Source: Lachnospiraceae bacterium G41 (GTDB lineage: Bacteria > Bacillota > Clostridia > Lachnospirales > Lachnospiraceae). Taken from it: 64,000 nt of DNA. The notes beneath the pieces are model-generated. The model saw nothing but the letters and a program-made list of their open reading frames with translations, ran no database searches and had not been told where the DNA came from. Positions 4,926-16,717 of this stretch are shown here, one piece after another. Every line of letters begins with the position of its first letter. Positions within the stretch are counted from its first letter, which is position 1. Location of the stretch: NCBI GenBank assembly GCA_900100245.1, contig FNEU01000001.1, forward strand, positions 372,001 to 436,000. The letters run 5' to 3'. A program made the position numbers and the translations under genes.

Positions 4926-5294
4926 TCAGAACGAAAACTCGGTTTCAAGACTTCCTTTAAGATATTCATCCGCCTTTTCATAAAAGCAGTTTTCCATATT
5001 GTGAATCTTTGAAGTCGATGCATATTCGAATGAATGATGATTTACCACAAGTCTGTAAGTAACGTTTCTGTCTTTGTCATATTCTTTTGTAAGATTAACG
5101 CCTGCGTTTTTGAATCCGTAATCGTTAAGATATTCTCTGATATCCTTTACATATTCTGCTTCGTTTCTTTCAATTGCCGCTCTGTACTCTTTTCCTTTTT
5201 TATCATTGGCATATGCTTTGACTGAAACGCTCAATATAACTGTTACAACGATTGCTGCTGATAAAATTATAAATAACTTAATTCTTCCGATCAT
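4926..5294 (-). CDS. Small exported or membrane-anchored protein of unknown function
   Basis: 122 residues. The first about 28 residues form a single hydrophobic segment after MIGRIK, consistent with a signal anchor or cleavable signal ending near AYAND. The rest is charged and mixed alpha/beta, with KDIREYLNDYGFKNAGVNLT and a C-terminal KADEYLKGSL. I do not recognise a family. It has a GGAGG ribosome site, and its 48-bp spacing to glyA suggests possible co-transcription. Confidence 0.7.
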   Translation of the reverse strand: MIGRIKLFIILSAAIVVTVILSVSVKAYANDKKGKEYRAAIERNEAEYVKDIREYLNDYGFKNAGVNLTKEYDKDRNVTYRLVVNHHSFEYASTSKIHNMENCFYEKADEYLKGSLETEFSF

Positions 5295-5351
5295 TTCTAT
5301 ATCCTCCCATAAAGGTTTCTTCTTTGTTTACGAGAGGAGTATAGCACAGGC

Positions 5352-12045: not shown

Positions 12046-12074
12046 TTGATAATGAAAGGAAAATGCTTTATACT
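12046..12074 (+). promoter_or_regulatory. Promoter of the GtrII-like gene
   Basis: TTGATA (12046-12051) and TATACT (12069-12074) are 17 bp apart. The start would be near 12081, about 45 nt before the chosen ATG. This also argues against the upstream ATG at 12063, which lies upstream of the -10 box. Confidence 0.7.
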
Positions 12075-12125
12075 TTATTCGACAGAATCTTTACTTCTGT
12101 CCTTATTTATAAGAGGGGGCTACGG

Positions 12126-13724
12126 ATGAAATTTTTCGATTTTCTCAAAAAGAATATTCTTTTCACATTGCTTTTCGGTGCATTCGTCGCTCTCATTTAT
12201 TCACCCCTTGTTTTCACCACGTCCTACTGCGCCGATATTGAATATGTTCAGGGCGCAAAGGGTAAGATCTACAACTGGAACGAGCTCGGCCGTTACACTC
12301 TGATACTTCTTAAAAAAATCACGTTCACCCCTTACAACAGAATCCTTGAAGGCGTGCTTTTTATAATCACAGCAATCCTTACGGTATTTGCTCTCTCCTA
12401 TCTCTTTTATCTATTAAATAAGAAAGCAAAGTCCGTTACACTGTTCATTCTCTCGGCGATTACTCTTATTTTCCCGACCTTCTGCGAGCAGTATTACTTT
12501 AGATTTCAGTCGTTCGAAGTAATGTTTGGAATATTCCTTACAGTTGTATCGGGAATCCTTTTCATAAAATACATGGAAACCGATAAACTTATTTTTCTGC
12601 CGATACCGATAGTTCTTAATGTGCTTTCATTCGGTATTTATCAGAGCATGCTTAATATAATGCTTGTTATATATGCAGGCATTTTCCTGATGCTTTTCCT
12701 AAGCGATATTGAATACGACAAAATAAAGGCTTTCATTGTAATGGCTTTGCAGTTTGTGGCGGCATTTCTCTTAAACCGCCTGGTAATTTTCGTCTTCTGT
12801 GAAAAAAGCAGTTACTTTTCCGACAAGATCATGTGGAAGCAGTATCCCTTCGATACCTGCTATCACTTCGTGAAACATTACTTCAGAGTGGTTCTTCTCG
12901 CAGAAACGCCGATGTACACAATTTCCTTCGCGGTATCGATTGTTCTTTCAATCCTCGCTCTTATCGCACTTTTTATAATGGTATGGATTAAAAATGAAAA
13001 ATTCACCATCATTTTTTCACTGCTTGGATTTTTCGGTCTTATAATCGGACCTTTTGTCATTGCAATCATCCAGGGCTTTGAGCCTGATTCAAGAACTCAG
13101 CTTGCCCTTCCGTTTTCGATTGCATTTTTATGTTTCTTTACTTACGGCGTTACGGAAAAAACTGTTTTGTTCATAAAAGAAGTAAAATTCCACAAAGACG
13201 AAGAAGAAAAGGCTGATGATTCAAAAAAGAAGTCGCATTCTTTTATGATTTATATTCTTACAGGCGGACTTATCATTATTCTTTTGCTTAATCTGATTCC
13301 GACACTAAGACTTACATATACAAGAATGATGATTAATAATTCCGACAGAAAGCATCTTACGGCAATCGCCAAAGATCTGGAAAAATACCACTGTGATGCC
13401 GAATATCCCTTACATCCTGTCATCTTTATCGGAACGCTTCCTTATGAATGCGGTGGTTTTGGATATCAATATGACTCTGAGCAAAAAGAATATATATTAA
13501 TCAACGCTTTTACTCTTGATTCGGAAACTAATCCGGAATATTTCTTCTCTACAAACCGCGCTCTTTCCGCCATGGAATGTCTCGGATACGATTACAACAA
13601 GCCCGAGAAAAGCAATTATATGAAAAAAGCAAAGGAAACAGCTGCCAACCTTCCTTCGTATCCCAGCAAAGGTTATATAGAGGATACCGGGGATTTTGTT
13701 GCAGTTAATCTCGGAAATTATTAA
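12126..13724 (+). CDS. GtrII-like polytopic membrane protein (glucosyltransferase family)
   Basis: 532 residues with roughly ten hydrophobic helices between residues 10 and 400 and a soluble C-terminal domain (about 415-532). The pattern, including SYCADIEYVQGAKGKIYNWNELGRY after helix 1, resembles the GtrII / Glucos_trans_II family, whose characterised members transfer glucose from a lipid carrier to surface polysaccharide. The acceptor is unknown and the assignment is by overall resemblance. The start is the ATG at 12126 after AGAGGGGG; an upstream in-frame ATG (12063) precedes the likely transcript start. An AraC regulator follows 30 bp downstream on the same strand. Confidence 0.6.
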   Translation: MKFFDFLKKNILFTLLFGAFVALIYSPLVFTTSYCADIEYVQGAKGKIYNWNELGRYTLILLKKITFTPYNRILEGVLFIITAILTVFALSYLFYLLNKKAKSVTLFILSAITLIFPTFCEQYYFRFQSFEVMFGIFLTVVSGILFIKYMETDKLIFLPIPIVLNVLSFGIYQSMLNIMLVIYAGIFLMLFLSDIEYDKIKAFIVMALQFVAAFLLNRLVIFVFCEKSSYFSDKIMWKQYPFDTCYHFVKHYFRVVLLAETPMYTISFAVSIVLSILALIALFIMVWIKNEKFTIIFSLLGFFGLIIGPFVIAIIQGFEPDSRTQLALPFSIAFLCFFTYGVTEKTVLFIKEVKFHKDEEEKADDSKKKSHSFMIYILTGGLIIILLLNLIPTLRLTYTRMMINNSDRKHLTAIAKDLEKYHCDAEYPLHPVIFIGTLPYECGGFGYQYDSEQKEYILINAFTLDSETNPEYFFSTNRALSAMECLGYDYNKPEKSNYMKKAKETAANLPSYPSKGYIEDTGDFVAVNLGNY

Positions 13725-13754
13725 AGCTTTTATTTATATTTGGAGGAGTGAATA

Positions 13755-14666
13755 ATGAACCTTTTTACAAAATCCTATAATCCCGACTGGGGCAGAATAG
13801 TCGATATGACAGTCGGAAAAAACAGCAGTCTTTCGGAAAATATCAAAGACGAAACCGTATTTAAATATATTCTTCATGAAAAGGGGAAAATCGAACTCGG
13901 TAATAACGGTAAATCTTATATGATAAAAGAACCCTCTCTGATTCTTTTATCCGATAAAGACTGCCCGGATTTTAAAGCGCTTTCCAAGGCAAGTGATACC
14001 GTTCTTTATTTTAAGCCTTCGGTTTTAAGAGATGAATTCACTCTTTCGGCCCTGCACGGTGAAAAATATGAAACTGCTTTCGGAACAGCCGTTTATCAGG
14101 ATTATTATCTGATCAGATACTTTATCAAAACAGAAGAATTCAATGAAAGGATAATTCCTCTCTCGGCGTGGGAGCTTGGCAGAATCAAAGGACTCCTCGA
14201 TTCCATCAATACGGAACTGACAACCCAGTATGACGGTTTCTGGCCGTGCAGAAGCAGGTCATTTCTTATGGAACTGCTCTTTTTCACACAATTTCTTTGC
14301 CAGACATTTGAAGGAAACAACAAGGTTTTATATGAAGACGATACAAACTTCTCATTAATAACGGAATATCTCAACGAACATTACAACGATGAAATATCTC
14401 TCGAATCAATAACGAAGAAGTTTAATATAAACCGAAACAAATTAAACAATATTTTCTTAAACAAGACATCCAAAACCTGTCTTAATTACCTGATGAATTT
14501 AAGAATCGACATGGCTAAAATAATTCTTGCCAACACCGAACTTCCCGTTAGTGAAGTTGCCGGTCGCGTCGGTTACAGCGATTCGAATTATTTTACCAAG
14601 ATATTCAAAAAAATGACCGGTTCCACCCCTTCTGCATTCAGAAATTCCAATTCAACGTGCAGATAA
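13755..14666 (+). CDS. AraC-family transcriptional regulator
   Basis: 303 residues. An N-terminal cupin-like sensing half without recognisable ligand residues is followed by two C-terminal helix-turn-helix motifs (about residues 200-298). These are recognised by ISLESITKKFNINRNKLNNI and the conserved VSEVAGRVGYSDSNYFTKIF...GSTPSAFR. The ribosome site is TGGAGGAG. It is 30 bp after the GtrII-like gene and 77 bp before the lipoprotein gene. A 9-bp direct repeat with 21-bp period overlaps its stop codon and could be its own target site upstream of the lipoprotein gene. Confidence 0.9.
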   Translation: MNLFTKSYNPDWGRIVDMTVGKNSSLSENIKDETVFKYILHEKGKIELGNNGKSYMIKEPSLILLSDKDCPDFKALSKASDTVLYFKPSVLRDEFTLSALHGEKYETAFGTAVYQDYYLIRYFIKTEEFNERIIPLSAWELGRIKGLLDSINTELTTQYDGFWPCRSRSFLMELLFFTQFLCQTFEGNNKVLYEDDTNFSLITEYLNEHYNDEISLESITKKFNINRNKLNNIFLNKTSKTCLNYLMNLRIDMAKIILANTELPVSEVAGRVGYSDSNYFTKIFKKMTGSTPSAFRNSNSTCR

Positions 14667-14700
14667 TACTAAAATCAGTGCAGATATTTCTTCTTAAAAT
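14657..14700 (+). promoter_or_regulatory. Candidate AraC-type operator and -10 box of the PEBP lipoprotein gene
   Basis: Two identical 9-mers GTGCAGATA start at 14657 and 14678, exactly 21 bp apart (two helical turns), the usual geometry of AraC half-sites. A TAAAAT -10-like box lies at 14695-14700 with no good -35, as expected for an activator-dependent promoter. The first copy overlaps the last codons of the regulator gene, so coding constraint could explain part of it. Confidence 0.5.
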
Positions 14701-14703
14701 AAT

Positions 14704-14736
14704 CCTCCTTTTGTATGATGAAAGTACAAAAGGAGG
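14704..14736 (+). promoter_or_regulatory. Hairpin that encloses the ribosome site of the PEBP lipoprotein
   Basis: Perfect 12-bp arms CCTCCTTTTGTA (14704-14715) and TACAAAAGGAGG (14725-14736) with a 9-nt loop. The right arm is the Shine-Dalgarno sequence (AAAGGAGG) of the gene starting at 14744, so the folded RNA hides it. The stem is followed by TTTTATT, so it could also act as a terminator or attenuator for the araC transcript. Confidence 0.75.
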
Positions 14737-14743
14737 TTTTATT

Positions 14744-16129
14744 ATGAGAAAAAATTATATATTATGCTCTTCCCTGCTTGCCGTTATGCTTATGTTCTCC
14801 GGATGCGAAAGCACACAGGGCGTTGATACCGGCAGTACCGCAAACACAGAAACGGTTATTGCAGCCGATTCGGAAAACGAAGATGTTCTTTCATCGGATA
14901 ACGAAGGCACATCAGATAATTCAAATCCTGCAGAAAGCGAAAGTTCGGAAGCCGTAAAAAAAGAAATCATCATTGAACCCGACAATTCATATATATACGA
15001 AGGGCTGTGCAAGGTAAATGCGGAATACGACGAAACCGCAGGCGGTGCTCCTTTAGATACAATCGTAAAAGAATTAAGAAAAGATTCTTATGAAGGAATG
15101 GTTCTTTTATCGCATGAGGTAACAGAAAATACCGATACCGTCAAATACAAAGTCATTCCGACGGATATTTCAGACAAAGCCCGTCCGTATATCTTGTGCA
15201 ATGCGGTATTTACCAAAGAAGGTGACGAATGGAGTCTTTCTTCCAAAGAATGGTCCGAATGGGTTATAAAAAGAAACGAATTAAGCGGAAGCAGCTGGGT
15301 TACAGATTCCGAAGAAGCAAAAGATTTTGCCAAACTTTTTGAAAGCGGTTTTGAATTCAAAGAAGGCTCAAATGTTTATATACATATTAAGAGAAACCTG
15401 TATTTAATCTCCGTACTTAAAAATGATGACCCTTCCGTATTTGAAACAAAATTCGGAACATCCTTCGGCGGAAGCATATATTACATAAACGACGAGGAAA
15501 ATAAATCGGTCGACTTTACCTGTACGGAAGGTATTGTAAACGACGAAGGACTCCTTTCATTCAAACTTGTAACGGATAACGGAGAAGCAGATTTCGAACC
15601 CGGAAACGGAAACAGTTTTATATCCGATGGATTTTATAAACTGTGTATTTCCGGTGAAACCGATGACTTAAGCAAGGCTGATGTAATCGAAAATCTCGAT
15701 ACCTTTGAAGTCACGAGCAAAAGTATCTTTTACGGTGAATGGATAAAAGAAACAGGTGGCCAGAACGGAAACGTAAGTCCCGAGCTGTCGTGGGAAAAAG
15801 TAGACGGAGCCGGCGCATATGCAATAATGATAACAGACCTTGACACGGTTGATTATTTTCTTCACGGATACAGAACGAGTGACACAACCCATCTTGATTA
15901 CGGCGATCTTGGTGATGACGAATTCTTAGGCCCCATCCCTCCGAGCCCTCACAATTACAAGGTATATGTATTTGCACTCAAAGAAGCCGTGGATCCCGGC
16001 TTAAGAGTCGCCAAACAGAACTGCCATCCGGAACATCTTTTCGATCTGCTTAACAAAGACAATCCCGGAAACGTAATTGCATACGGAACGGTTACGGCAT
16101 CATATGAATATCTCGGCAGAGTATGGTAG
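14744..16129 (+). CDS. Lipoprotein with C-terminal PEBP (YbhB/YbcL-like) domain
   Basis: 461 residues. The signal peptide MRKNYILCSSLLAVMLMFSG is followed by the lipobox Cys (FSGC), then an acidic Ser/Glu/Asn-rich linker (about 25-65). Residues about 70-325 are an extracellular domain I do not recognise. The last about 125 residues resemble the phosphatidylethanolamine-binding protein family: NVSPELSWEKVDGAGAYAIM, ITDLD, and GPIPPSPHNYKVYVFALKE with the His-containing loop. Bacterial PEBPs bind anionic ligands but their roles are mostly unclear; fusion to a long lipoprotein is unusual. The upstream ATG at 14657 is rejected because the ATG at 14744 has the AAAGGAGG site and the signal peptide. 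Expression is probably controlled by the preceding AraC protein and by the ribosome-site hairpin. Confidence 0.8.
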   Translation: MRKNYILCSSLLAVMLMFSGCESTQGVDTGSTANTETVIAADSENEDVLSSDNEGTSDNSNPAESESSEAVKKEIIIEPDNSYIYEGLCKVNAEYDETAGGAPLDTIVKELRKDSYEGMVLLSHEVTENTDTVKYKVIPTDISDKARPYILCNAVFTKEGDEWSLSSKEWSEWVIKRNELSGSSWVTDSEEAKDFAKLFESGFEFKEGSNVYIHIKRNLYLISVLKNDDPSVFETKFGTSFGGSIYYINDEENKSVDFTCTEGIVNDEGLLSFKLVTDNGEADFEPGNGNSFISDGFYKLCISGETDDLSKADVIENLDTFEVTSKSIFYGEWIKETGGQNGNVSPELSWEKVDGAGAYAIMITDLDTVDYFLHGYRTSDTTHLDYGDLGDDEFLGPIPPSPHNYKVYVFALKEAVDPGLRVAKQNCHPEHLFDLLNKDNPGNVIAYGTVTASYEYLGRVW

Positions 16130-16144
16130 AATCATAAAAAATTA

Positions 16145-16176
16145 ACACCTCGGAAATTAATCCGAGGTGTTTTTTT
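16145..16176. terminator. Bidirectional terminator between PEBP lipoprotein gene and queT
   Basis: A perfect 10-bp stem (ACACCTCGGA / TCCGAGGTGT) is followed by a run of seven T on the plus strand, with T-rich sequence also on the minus side. It closes two convergent genes; its right end touches the queT stop. Confidence 0.9.
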
Positions 16177-16717
16177 ATTCACTGAAATGAACCGCCTTAT
16201 CGACTCTGTTAAGTGCAAGTACAAATAAAGGTCCGAAAACATAGCAGGAAATCACTTCGCCGATGAATACCGAAAGTGAAAGAAACAAAAGTACGGGCAG
16301 CATGCTGCTGGCATTTGCAAAACTTGTTACCCCAAAACCAAAGTAAAGTACAAATGGAATTATAATTGCATTGACCAATACGGTTGGAATAGGAATTAAA
16401 AGCGCGTGTTTCATTTTAAGAACGGGACCGTGTTTTTTTCTTATGGTTCTGACAATAGGATATGTAAGCAATGCTGCTATAAGAGTAGCTGCAGTACCAA
16501 AAATCATATCAAGCGGTGAACCGCCAATTATATTTGTAATAAAACATCCGATGACTACTCCGATGATTCCGGCCGGAGTGTAGAAGATTGTCATGCATAA
16601 AGCTTCAGCTATTCTGCACTGAATCTCAAGATACGAGAATGTGTATGTGATAAGTGAAAGCACCACATACAACGCTGCCACGATTGCGGCTGTGGTAATA
16701 AATTTTGCTGTTTTCAT
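16175..16717 (-). CDS. queT: QueT-family queuosine-precursor transporter (ECF S component)
   Basis: 180 residues and about six membrane segments. The motif YLEIQCRIAEALCMTIFYTPAGIIGVVIGCF and IGGSPLDMIFGTAATLIAALLTYP match the QueT family, S components of energy-coupling factor transporters that import queuosine precursors such as preQ1. The shared ECF module genes are not nearby. The leader contains a preQ1-I-like hairpin with an A-rich tail ending in the ribosome site, which independently supports the substrate. A GC-rich hairpin and pfp lie upstream. Confidence 0.85.
   Translation of the reverse strand: MKTAKFITTAAIVAALYVVLSLITYTFSYLEIQCRIAEALCMTIFYTPAGIIGVVIGCFITNIIGGSPLDMIFGTAATLIAALLTYPIVRTIRKKHGPVLKMKHALLIPIPTVLVNAIIIPFVLYFGFGVTSFANASSMLPVLLFLSLSVFIGEVISCYVFGPLFVLALNRVDKAVHFSE

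Follow-up and report, generated by a model that had tools for sequence, protein, structure and literature searches.

A predicted AraC-activated promoter that probably lies inside a read-through lock on a lipoprotein gene in a rumen Lachnospiraceae genus

The window analysed here is a 64,000-nucleotide stretch (G000:C17:372001-436000) of the 2.59-Mb genome of Lachnospiraceae bacterium G41, which is assembled in 22 contigs. Three genes follow one another on the plus strand: a GtrII-like glucosyltransferase gene (gtrII-like, 12063-13724; Pfam PF14264, E 9.4e-28), an AraC-family regulator gene (araC, 13755-14666; PF12833, E 7.1e-19, and PF00165, E 6.2e-11) and a lipoprotein gene with a C-terminal PEBP domain (14744-16129; PF01161, E 1.9e-07). 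The lipoprotein gene is presumed to be the regulated gene, and the gtrII-like gene, as upstream neighbour, is a possible source of read-through RNA.

Matches to the lipoprotein at E 1e-50 or better numbered 19 and were distributed over 11 of the 31 genomes of the genus. A regulatory module of repeats and hairpin, varied in form, is kept at 12 of these loci (L001, L004-L013 and L022), which are spread over all 11 of these genomes of the rumen Lachnospiraceae genus. The seven module-free matches comprise tandem further copies (L023, L024 and L030) and paralogues elsewhere (L002, L025, L026 and L027). Several module loci carry a second handle for the same place (L004=L048, L005=L049, L006=L050, L007=L051, L008=L052, L009=L054 and L010=L053). 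The named relatives are Lachnospiraceae MAGs, with water buffalo rumen or abomasum and yak rumen as stated sources, and the gtrII-like gene lies directly 5' of araC at 7/7 named loci (the L053 contig holds only the 3' part of gtrII). The araC gene is found immediately 5' of the lipoprotein gene at 11/12 module loci; at L022, a second lipoprotein copy is preceded by the first copy instead of araC and carries its own repeats, -10 and hairpin. Tandem duplication of the lipoprotein gene was seen in G003, G020 and G023, where the G003 copy retains the entire module and the G020 and G023 copies retain the ribosome site only. Just 5' of the paralogous genes L002, L025 and L026, which lack the hairpin, another AraC gene is encoded on the opposite strand; the AraC-lipoprotein pairing therefore recurs.

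Two putative AraC half-sites, each with the sequence GTGCAGATA, lie head to tail on the plus strand at 14657-14665 and 14678-14686. The first overlaps the 3' end of araC, which ends at 14666, and the second, conserved among the 12 loci, is followed by a conserved TTTCTT. The start-to-start distance of 21 bp, which the sequence-only reading had observed for these identical 9-mers, was retained at 12/12 loci, and both copies were exactly GTGCAGATA at seven of the 12. When the 12 loci were aligned (alignment A2), 30 of 36 positions from 14657 to 14692 were invariant or nearly so, compared with one of 11 positions from 14693 to 14703. A search of 32 genomes for the pattern GTGCANATAN{9,13}GTGCANATA gave one match each in seven genomes, all seven at the araC-lipoprotein locus; G007 and G008, module genomes included in the same search, have diverged repeats and gave no exact match. 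Within the AraC DNA-binding domains, NRNKLN and NYF...FKK were identical in 11/11. Two features of AraC/XylS-family promoters were found: half-sites in direct repeat, spaced by about two turns of the helix and adjoining the -35, and a neighbouring gene whose product has an AraC-type DNA-binding domain (PF12833, PF00165). As a prediction, AraC-type activation through 21-bp direct repeats next to a poor -35 beside araC is well supported. The support for activation by the adjacent AraC protein, as proposed by the sequence-only reading, is comparative, and comes from the repeats at a 21-bp pitch and the poor -35, conserved beside araC.

The predicted -35, TTCTTA (14691-14696), is a poor hexamer that differs between loci, and stands 17 nt before a predicted -10, TATGAT (14714-14719), between the hairpin arms. 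A TAnnAT hexamer was present 27-28 nt after half-site 2 at 12/12 loci (TATGAT at eight, TATAAT at two, TATTAT and TACTAT at one each), a position that is partly imposed because TA[TC]NAT was sought within a fixed window of 24-31 nt. At all 12 loci the hexamer starts after the anti-SD stretch and ends before the SD arm. The predicted transcript start is the A at 14726, the seventh base past the -10, and a purine occupies this place at 12/12 loci. The -10 had previously been assigned to a TAAAAT box; this box does exist at 14695-14700, but a similar one was counted by eye at about 3/12 loci in alignment A2 and is therefore no conserved -10, so its proposed role is probably wrong, whereas the TATGAT inside the hairpin is conserved. 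The likely -10 is this TATGAT, which would give a start near 14726 and an RNA without the left arm. A generic scan of 13650-16300 returned six promoter-like sites compared with 6.4 in shuffles, which is no excess, and the TATGAT promoter was not among the sites that this sigma-70 scan listed.

The hairpin noted in the sequence-only reading, a perfect 12-bp stem whose right arm is the lipoprotein SD and which is followed by TTTTATT, is present. Its left, anti-SD arm CCTCCTTTTGTA (14704-14715) lies within the promoter spacer, and its right arm TACAAAAGGAGG (14725-14736) contains the SD AAAGGAGG; 12 Watson-Crick pairs and one T-G pair are formed. The TTTTATT at 14737-14743, spacer and possible U-tract, leads to the ATG at 14744-14746, and a T-rich stretch occurs here at 10/12 loci, being absent in L011 and L012. 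Folding of a 71-nt stretch gave -26.1 kcal/mol (z -7.05), and none of 200 shuffles was equally stable. The pattern CCTCCTTTN{4,34}AAAGGAGG (CCTCCTTT..AAAGGAGG) had a single match in the 2.59-Mb genome. When the loci were folded singly, the SD was paired with a stretch 5' of the -10 at 12/12, with z from -7.8 to -2.6 relative to shuffles (weakest for L011 and L012) and with loops that span 7 to 18 nt wherever they hold no inner hairpin. At position SD-3 the pair was G-C, U-A, U-G, G-U or A-U depending on the locus, and several pair types also occurred at stem positions flanking the SD. The computed unpaired fraction of the SD was 0.00-0.17 in read-through RNA at 12/12 loci and 0.24-0.78 in RNA from the predicted +1, with a value of only 0.26 for the locus in the window. 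A paired SD alone is not rare, as among the 26 genes in the window whose SD is clear, three others, araC included, also fold with it less than 0.1 unpaired; what is special here is the conservation, the co-evolution of the arms and the nested promoter.

A 122-aa gene without a Pfam match (4926-5294) lies elsewhere in the window on the minus strand; at 5294-5350 its SD pairs with CTATACTCCTCTC, and TATACT lies inside as a -10-like box. This hairpin, which is possibly a second nested case, has a z of only -2.10, and 8/200 shuffles were as stable.

Co-evolution of the arms was assessed by exchanging arms between 11 loci, the arms being cut by position, blind to structure, and L004 being excluded for having arms identical to those of L001. 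Own arms gave a mean of -16.5 kcal/mol and swapped arms -13.7, and none of 20000 permutations reached the own value. In reduced sets, the corresponding counts were 6/40320 for eight chosen loci, 2/5040 for seven and 1/120 for five, the last being the true assignment itself; the own partner was the single best for only 3/8 left arms. Two results from alignments speak against this: in the automatic structural alignment A6, 84.9% of cells were paired compared with 83.2% in shuffles, no measure being clearly above, and RNAalifold on alignment A4 returned an unfavourable covariation term of +0.65, with changes on both sides at 2/12 pairs. In our judgement these results arose because the arms of loci that differ in loop length stand out of register in A4 and A6, and for this reason the folds of single loci and the own-versus-swapped comparison were used. 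A covariance model (R1) run on 61 genomes found 11 places in 10 genomes, all 11 being the model's own loci, and no new family member.

Taken together, we consider it moderately probable that an AraC-activated promoter is nested inside a read-through lock on the lipoprotein gene. Comparison of the loci shows that the repeats and the -10 are conserved together with the distances between them, and so is the predicted pairing of the SD. The adjacent AraC protein would bind the half-sites at 14657 and 14678 and recruit RNA polymerase, which would use the promoter with its poor -35 and the -10 at 14714-14719. The resulting mRNA would begin near 14726; its leader, some 18 nt long, would lack the left arm and leave the SD usable. 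Read-through RNA from gtrII-araC, by contrast, would hold both arms, and in folding its SD is paired; such RNA would give no translation at the lipoprotein start codon, and part of it may end at TTTTATT. Production of the lipoprotein would then be confined to times when AraC is active.

The sequence-only reading had advised a comparison of orthologous intergenic regions and had named two findings that would speak against it: loss of the direct repeat and hairpin in other genomes, and an mRNA that starts downstream of the left arm. Both elements turned out to be conserved, and the downstream start is predicted to apply to the AraC-driven mRNA. Since an RNA starting near 14726 would lack the left arm, the hairpin probably has no control over this message, and the translational or attenuation control formerly suggested for it is unlikely; a lock that acts on read-through transcripts is the better reading of the hairpin. 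Temperature sensing was also set aside as unlikely, the left arm being predicted absent from the regulated mRNA. A frame that opens with GTG at 14657, crosses the hairpin and continues in phase with the lipoprotein was treated as chance, because the length before the ATG varies among orthologues. If the nested arrangement is real, about 90 bp would combine an activator site, a promoter, a read-through lock and a ribosome site, and whether a message is translated would depend on where it starts, as is known for T4 late genes.

Other explanations of the hairpin were weighed. Intrinsic termination of gtrII-araC as its main role, with the SD reused as 3' arm and the translation block a by-product, seems to us unlikely. 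Its long stem has five C-G pairs at the base, is followed by TTTTATT and was on the terminator-like list of the generic scan (three such sites in 13650-16300 compared with 2.8 in shuffles, no excess), and with a T-rich stretch following at 10/12 loci partial termination is possible. However, the SD is still paired in L011 and L012 (unpaired fractions 0.05 and 0.17), which have no U-tract, and L022, with no araC in front of it, has the hairpin too. The tandem copies L023 and L030, which are free of the hairpin, share GGAGGTTTTATTATG and the T-run between SD and ATG, which shows that this run belongs to the ribosome site in any case. Three points favour a translational lock over a terminator: arm co-evolution, a loop of variable length, and an SD that stays paired at two loci lacking a U-tract.

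A start upstream of the left arm, for example from the TAAAAT present at 14695, would make the hairpin a thermosensor, attenuator or ligand-sensing leader of the AraC-driven mRNA, and the SD of any such RNA would indeed be hidden. We regard this as improbable, given that the box is not conserved by eye whereas TAnnAT lies inside the hairpin at 12/12 loci, and that Rfam matches at the gathering threshold in the whole window were five tRNAs elsewhere, with none at the hairpin. It is more doubtful still that the inverted repeat acts as a DNA operator for a dimeric repressor and not as an RNA structure, an explanation to which we give very little weight. The repeat is palindromic in DNA and spans the -10 and +1, the usual place of an operator, but where no inner hairpin is present the loop can be as short as 7 and as long as 18 nt, some pairs are G-T, the paired SD persists in L011 and L012 with different sequences, and the motif was found at no other place in the genome or, by the covariance model, in the 61 genomes.

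Related Clostridia have further SD hairpins in which a -10-like box lies between the arms; these are a lead, not proof. The pattern CTCCTTN{8,38}AAGGAGN{4,12}ATG gave 117 matches in 32 genomes compared with 59 for the backwards pattern. Among the 116 analysed, which include both strands of some places, 22 had at least three further stem pairs; a -10-like box lay between the arms in 15/22 of these compared with 19/94 of the remainder (Fisher p 3e-5), the shuffle expectations being 5.4/22 and 14.8/94. With the present gene family excluded and relatives collapsed by hand, the counts were 8/14 and 16/91 (p 0.003). In 196 genomes, CTCCTTN{0,18}TATAATN{4,34}AAGGAGG gave 50 matches in 34 genomes, and the backwards pattern gave 10. 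Five of 32 hand-chosen representatives had at least three further Watson-Crick pairs, for which mismatched arms gave an expectation of 3.2% (p 0.003). The surroundings of 12 examples were read: in none did a gene on the opposite strand begin at the left arm, in nine a frame on the same strand ended within 300 nt, and four (L087, L090, L093 and L096) open only a frame of at most 21 residues at the matched ATG and may be no gene starts. It is conceivable, though we advance it only tentatively, that a promoter nested in an SD-hiding hairpin is a recurrent and independently evolved device of the Clostridia, possibly also of mobile elements, by which a gene would be deaf to read-through and obey only its own promoter; the AraC locus would then be a chromosomal case with comparative support. 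Were the nested arrangement real and widely used, RNA-seq coverage over such genes need not mean protein, and the order anti-SD, -10 box, SD offers a simple signature for other genomes.

Several individual cases were recorded in these searches. A hairpin of the form CTCCTTATTCGTG-TATAAT or TATACT-(loop)-CACGAATAAGGAG occurs in three species of the genus (L085, G000:C21:157589-157640; L086, G010:C171; and G013:C112), and the gene that follows it in G000:C21 and G010:C171 is membrane protein-like, with no Pfam match. Good-looking cases in G063 precede superoxide dismutase-like and MFS-like genes, named by eye. Stretches of the CTCCTT..TATAAT..AAGGAGG type are multi-copy in G136 (six places) and G152 (four places), and multi-copy or related stretches occur also in G076, G211, G072:C11, G106, G133 and G177; some hold a second inner repeat of GGTT..AACC type, and the multi-copy ones are perhaps mobile elements. 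A conserved SD hairpin was also seen 5' of a 61-aa gene, ribosomal protein L28-like by eye (G000:C17:12214-12254, minus strand; L070, L071, L074, L077 and L079). Its TATAAT is upstream of the left arm, which would place the hairpin within the mRNA, perhaps as an autoregulatory leader.

The locus can be compared with known systems from two sides. The araBAD I1-I2 and XylS sites consist of two half-sites in direct repeat at a pitch of about 21 bp, of which the second stands beside a poor -35. The SphR sites are a further AraC/XylS-family example of this arrangement (PMC3900636). The locus resembles these promoters in half-site pitch and in the second half-site next to a poor -35; it differs in that the promoter lies inside an SD-pairing hairpin and that the predicted site pair occurs, by pattern, once per genome. 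Inhibition of translation by fold-back is known from the IS10/Tn10 transposase, where a folded start region blocks translation of read-through RNA and the element's own promoter gives a shorter RNA. A literature search on IS10 returned only Hfq binding to the IS10 ribosome site, and fold-back inhibition was not found in it. The present gene is no transposase, and activator sites are present.

Phage T4 gene e, I-TevI and Aeh1 mobE have an SD hidden by a hairpin in long transcripts, and a late promoter within the 5'-strand stretch yields a short, translated RNA without that strand (PMC3014915, PMC2988022). As in these systems, the SD is paired by folding in the longer read-through RNA at 12/12 loci. 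That the gene's own RNA would lack the 5' arm is a prediction from sequence, with TAnnAT between the arms at 12/12 loci. The phage systems rely on a late promoter and temporal control, whereas here a predicted housekeeping-type promoter and AraC half-sites are found on a chromosome. The late promoter sequence TATAAATA was not found, the 12 loci having TATGAT, TATAAT, TATTAT or TACTAT, and by this criterion the locus is not a member, although by analogy it may work like the T4 gene e type. A narrow search of the open literature, covering titles and the beginnings of abstracts, returned no chromosomal AraC example of a nested promoter, which is weak evidence. The principle is not new, because T4 gene e, I-TevI and mobE use the same logic; what is new is a chromosomal version of AraC type, predicted here with comparative support.
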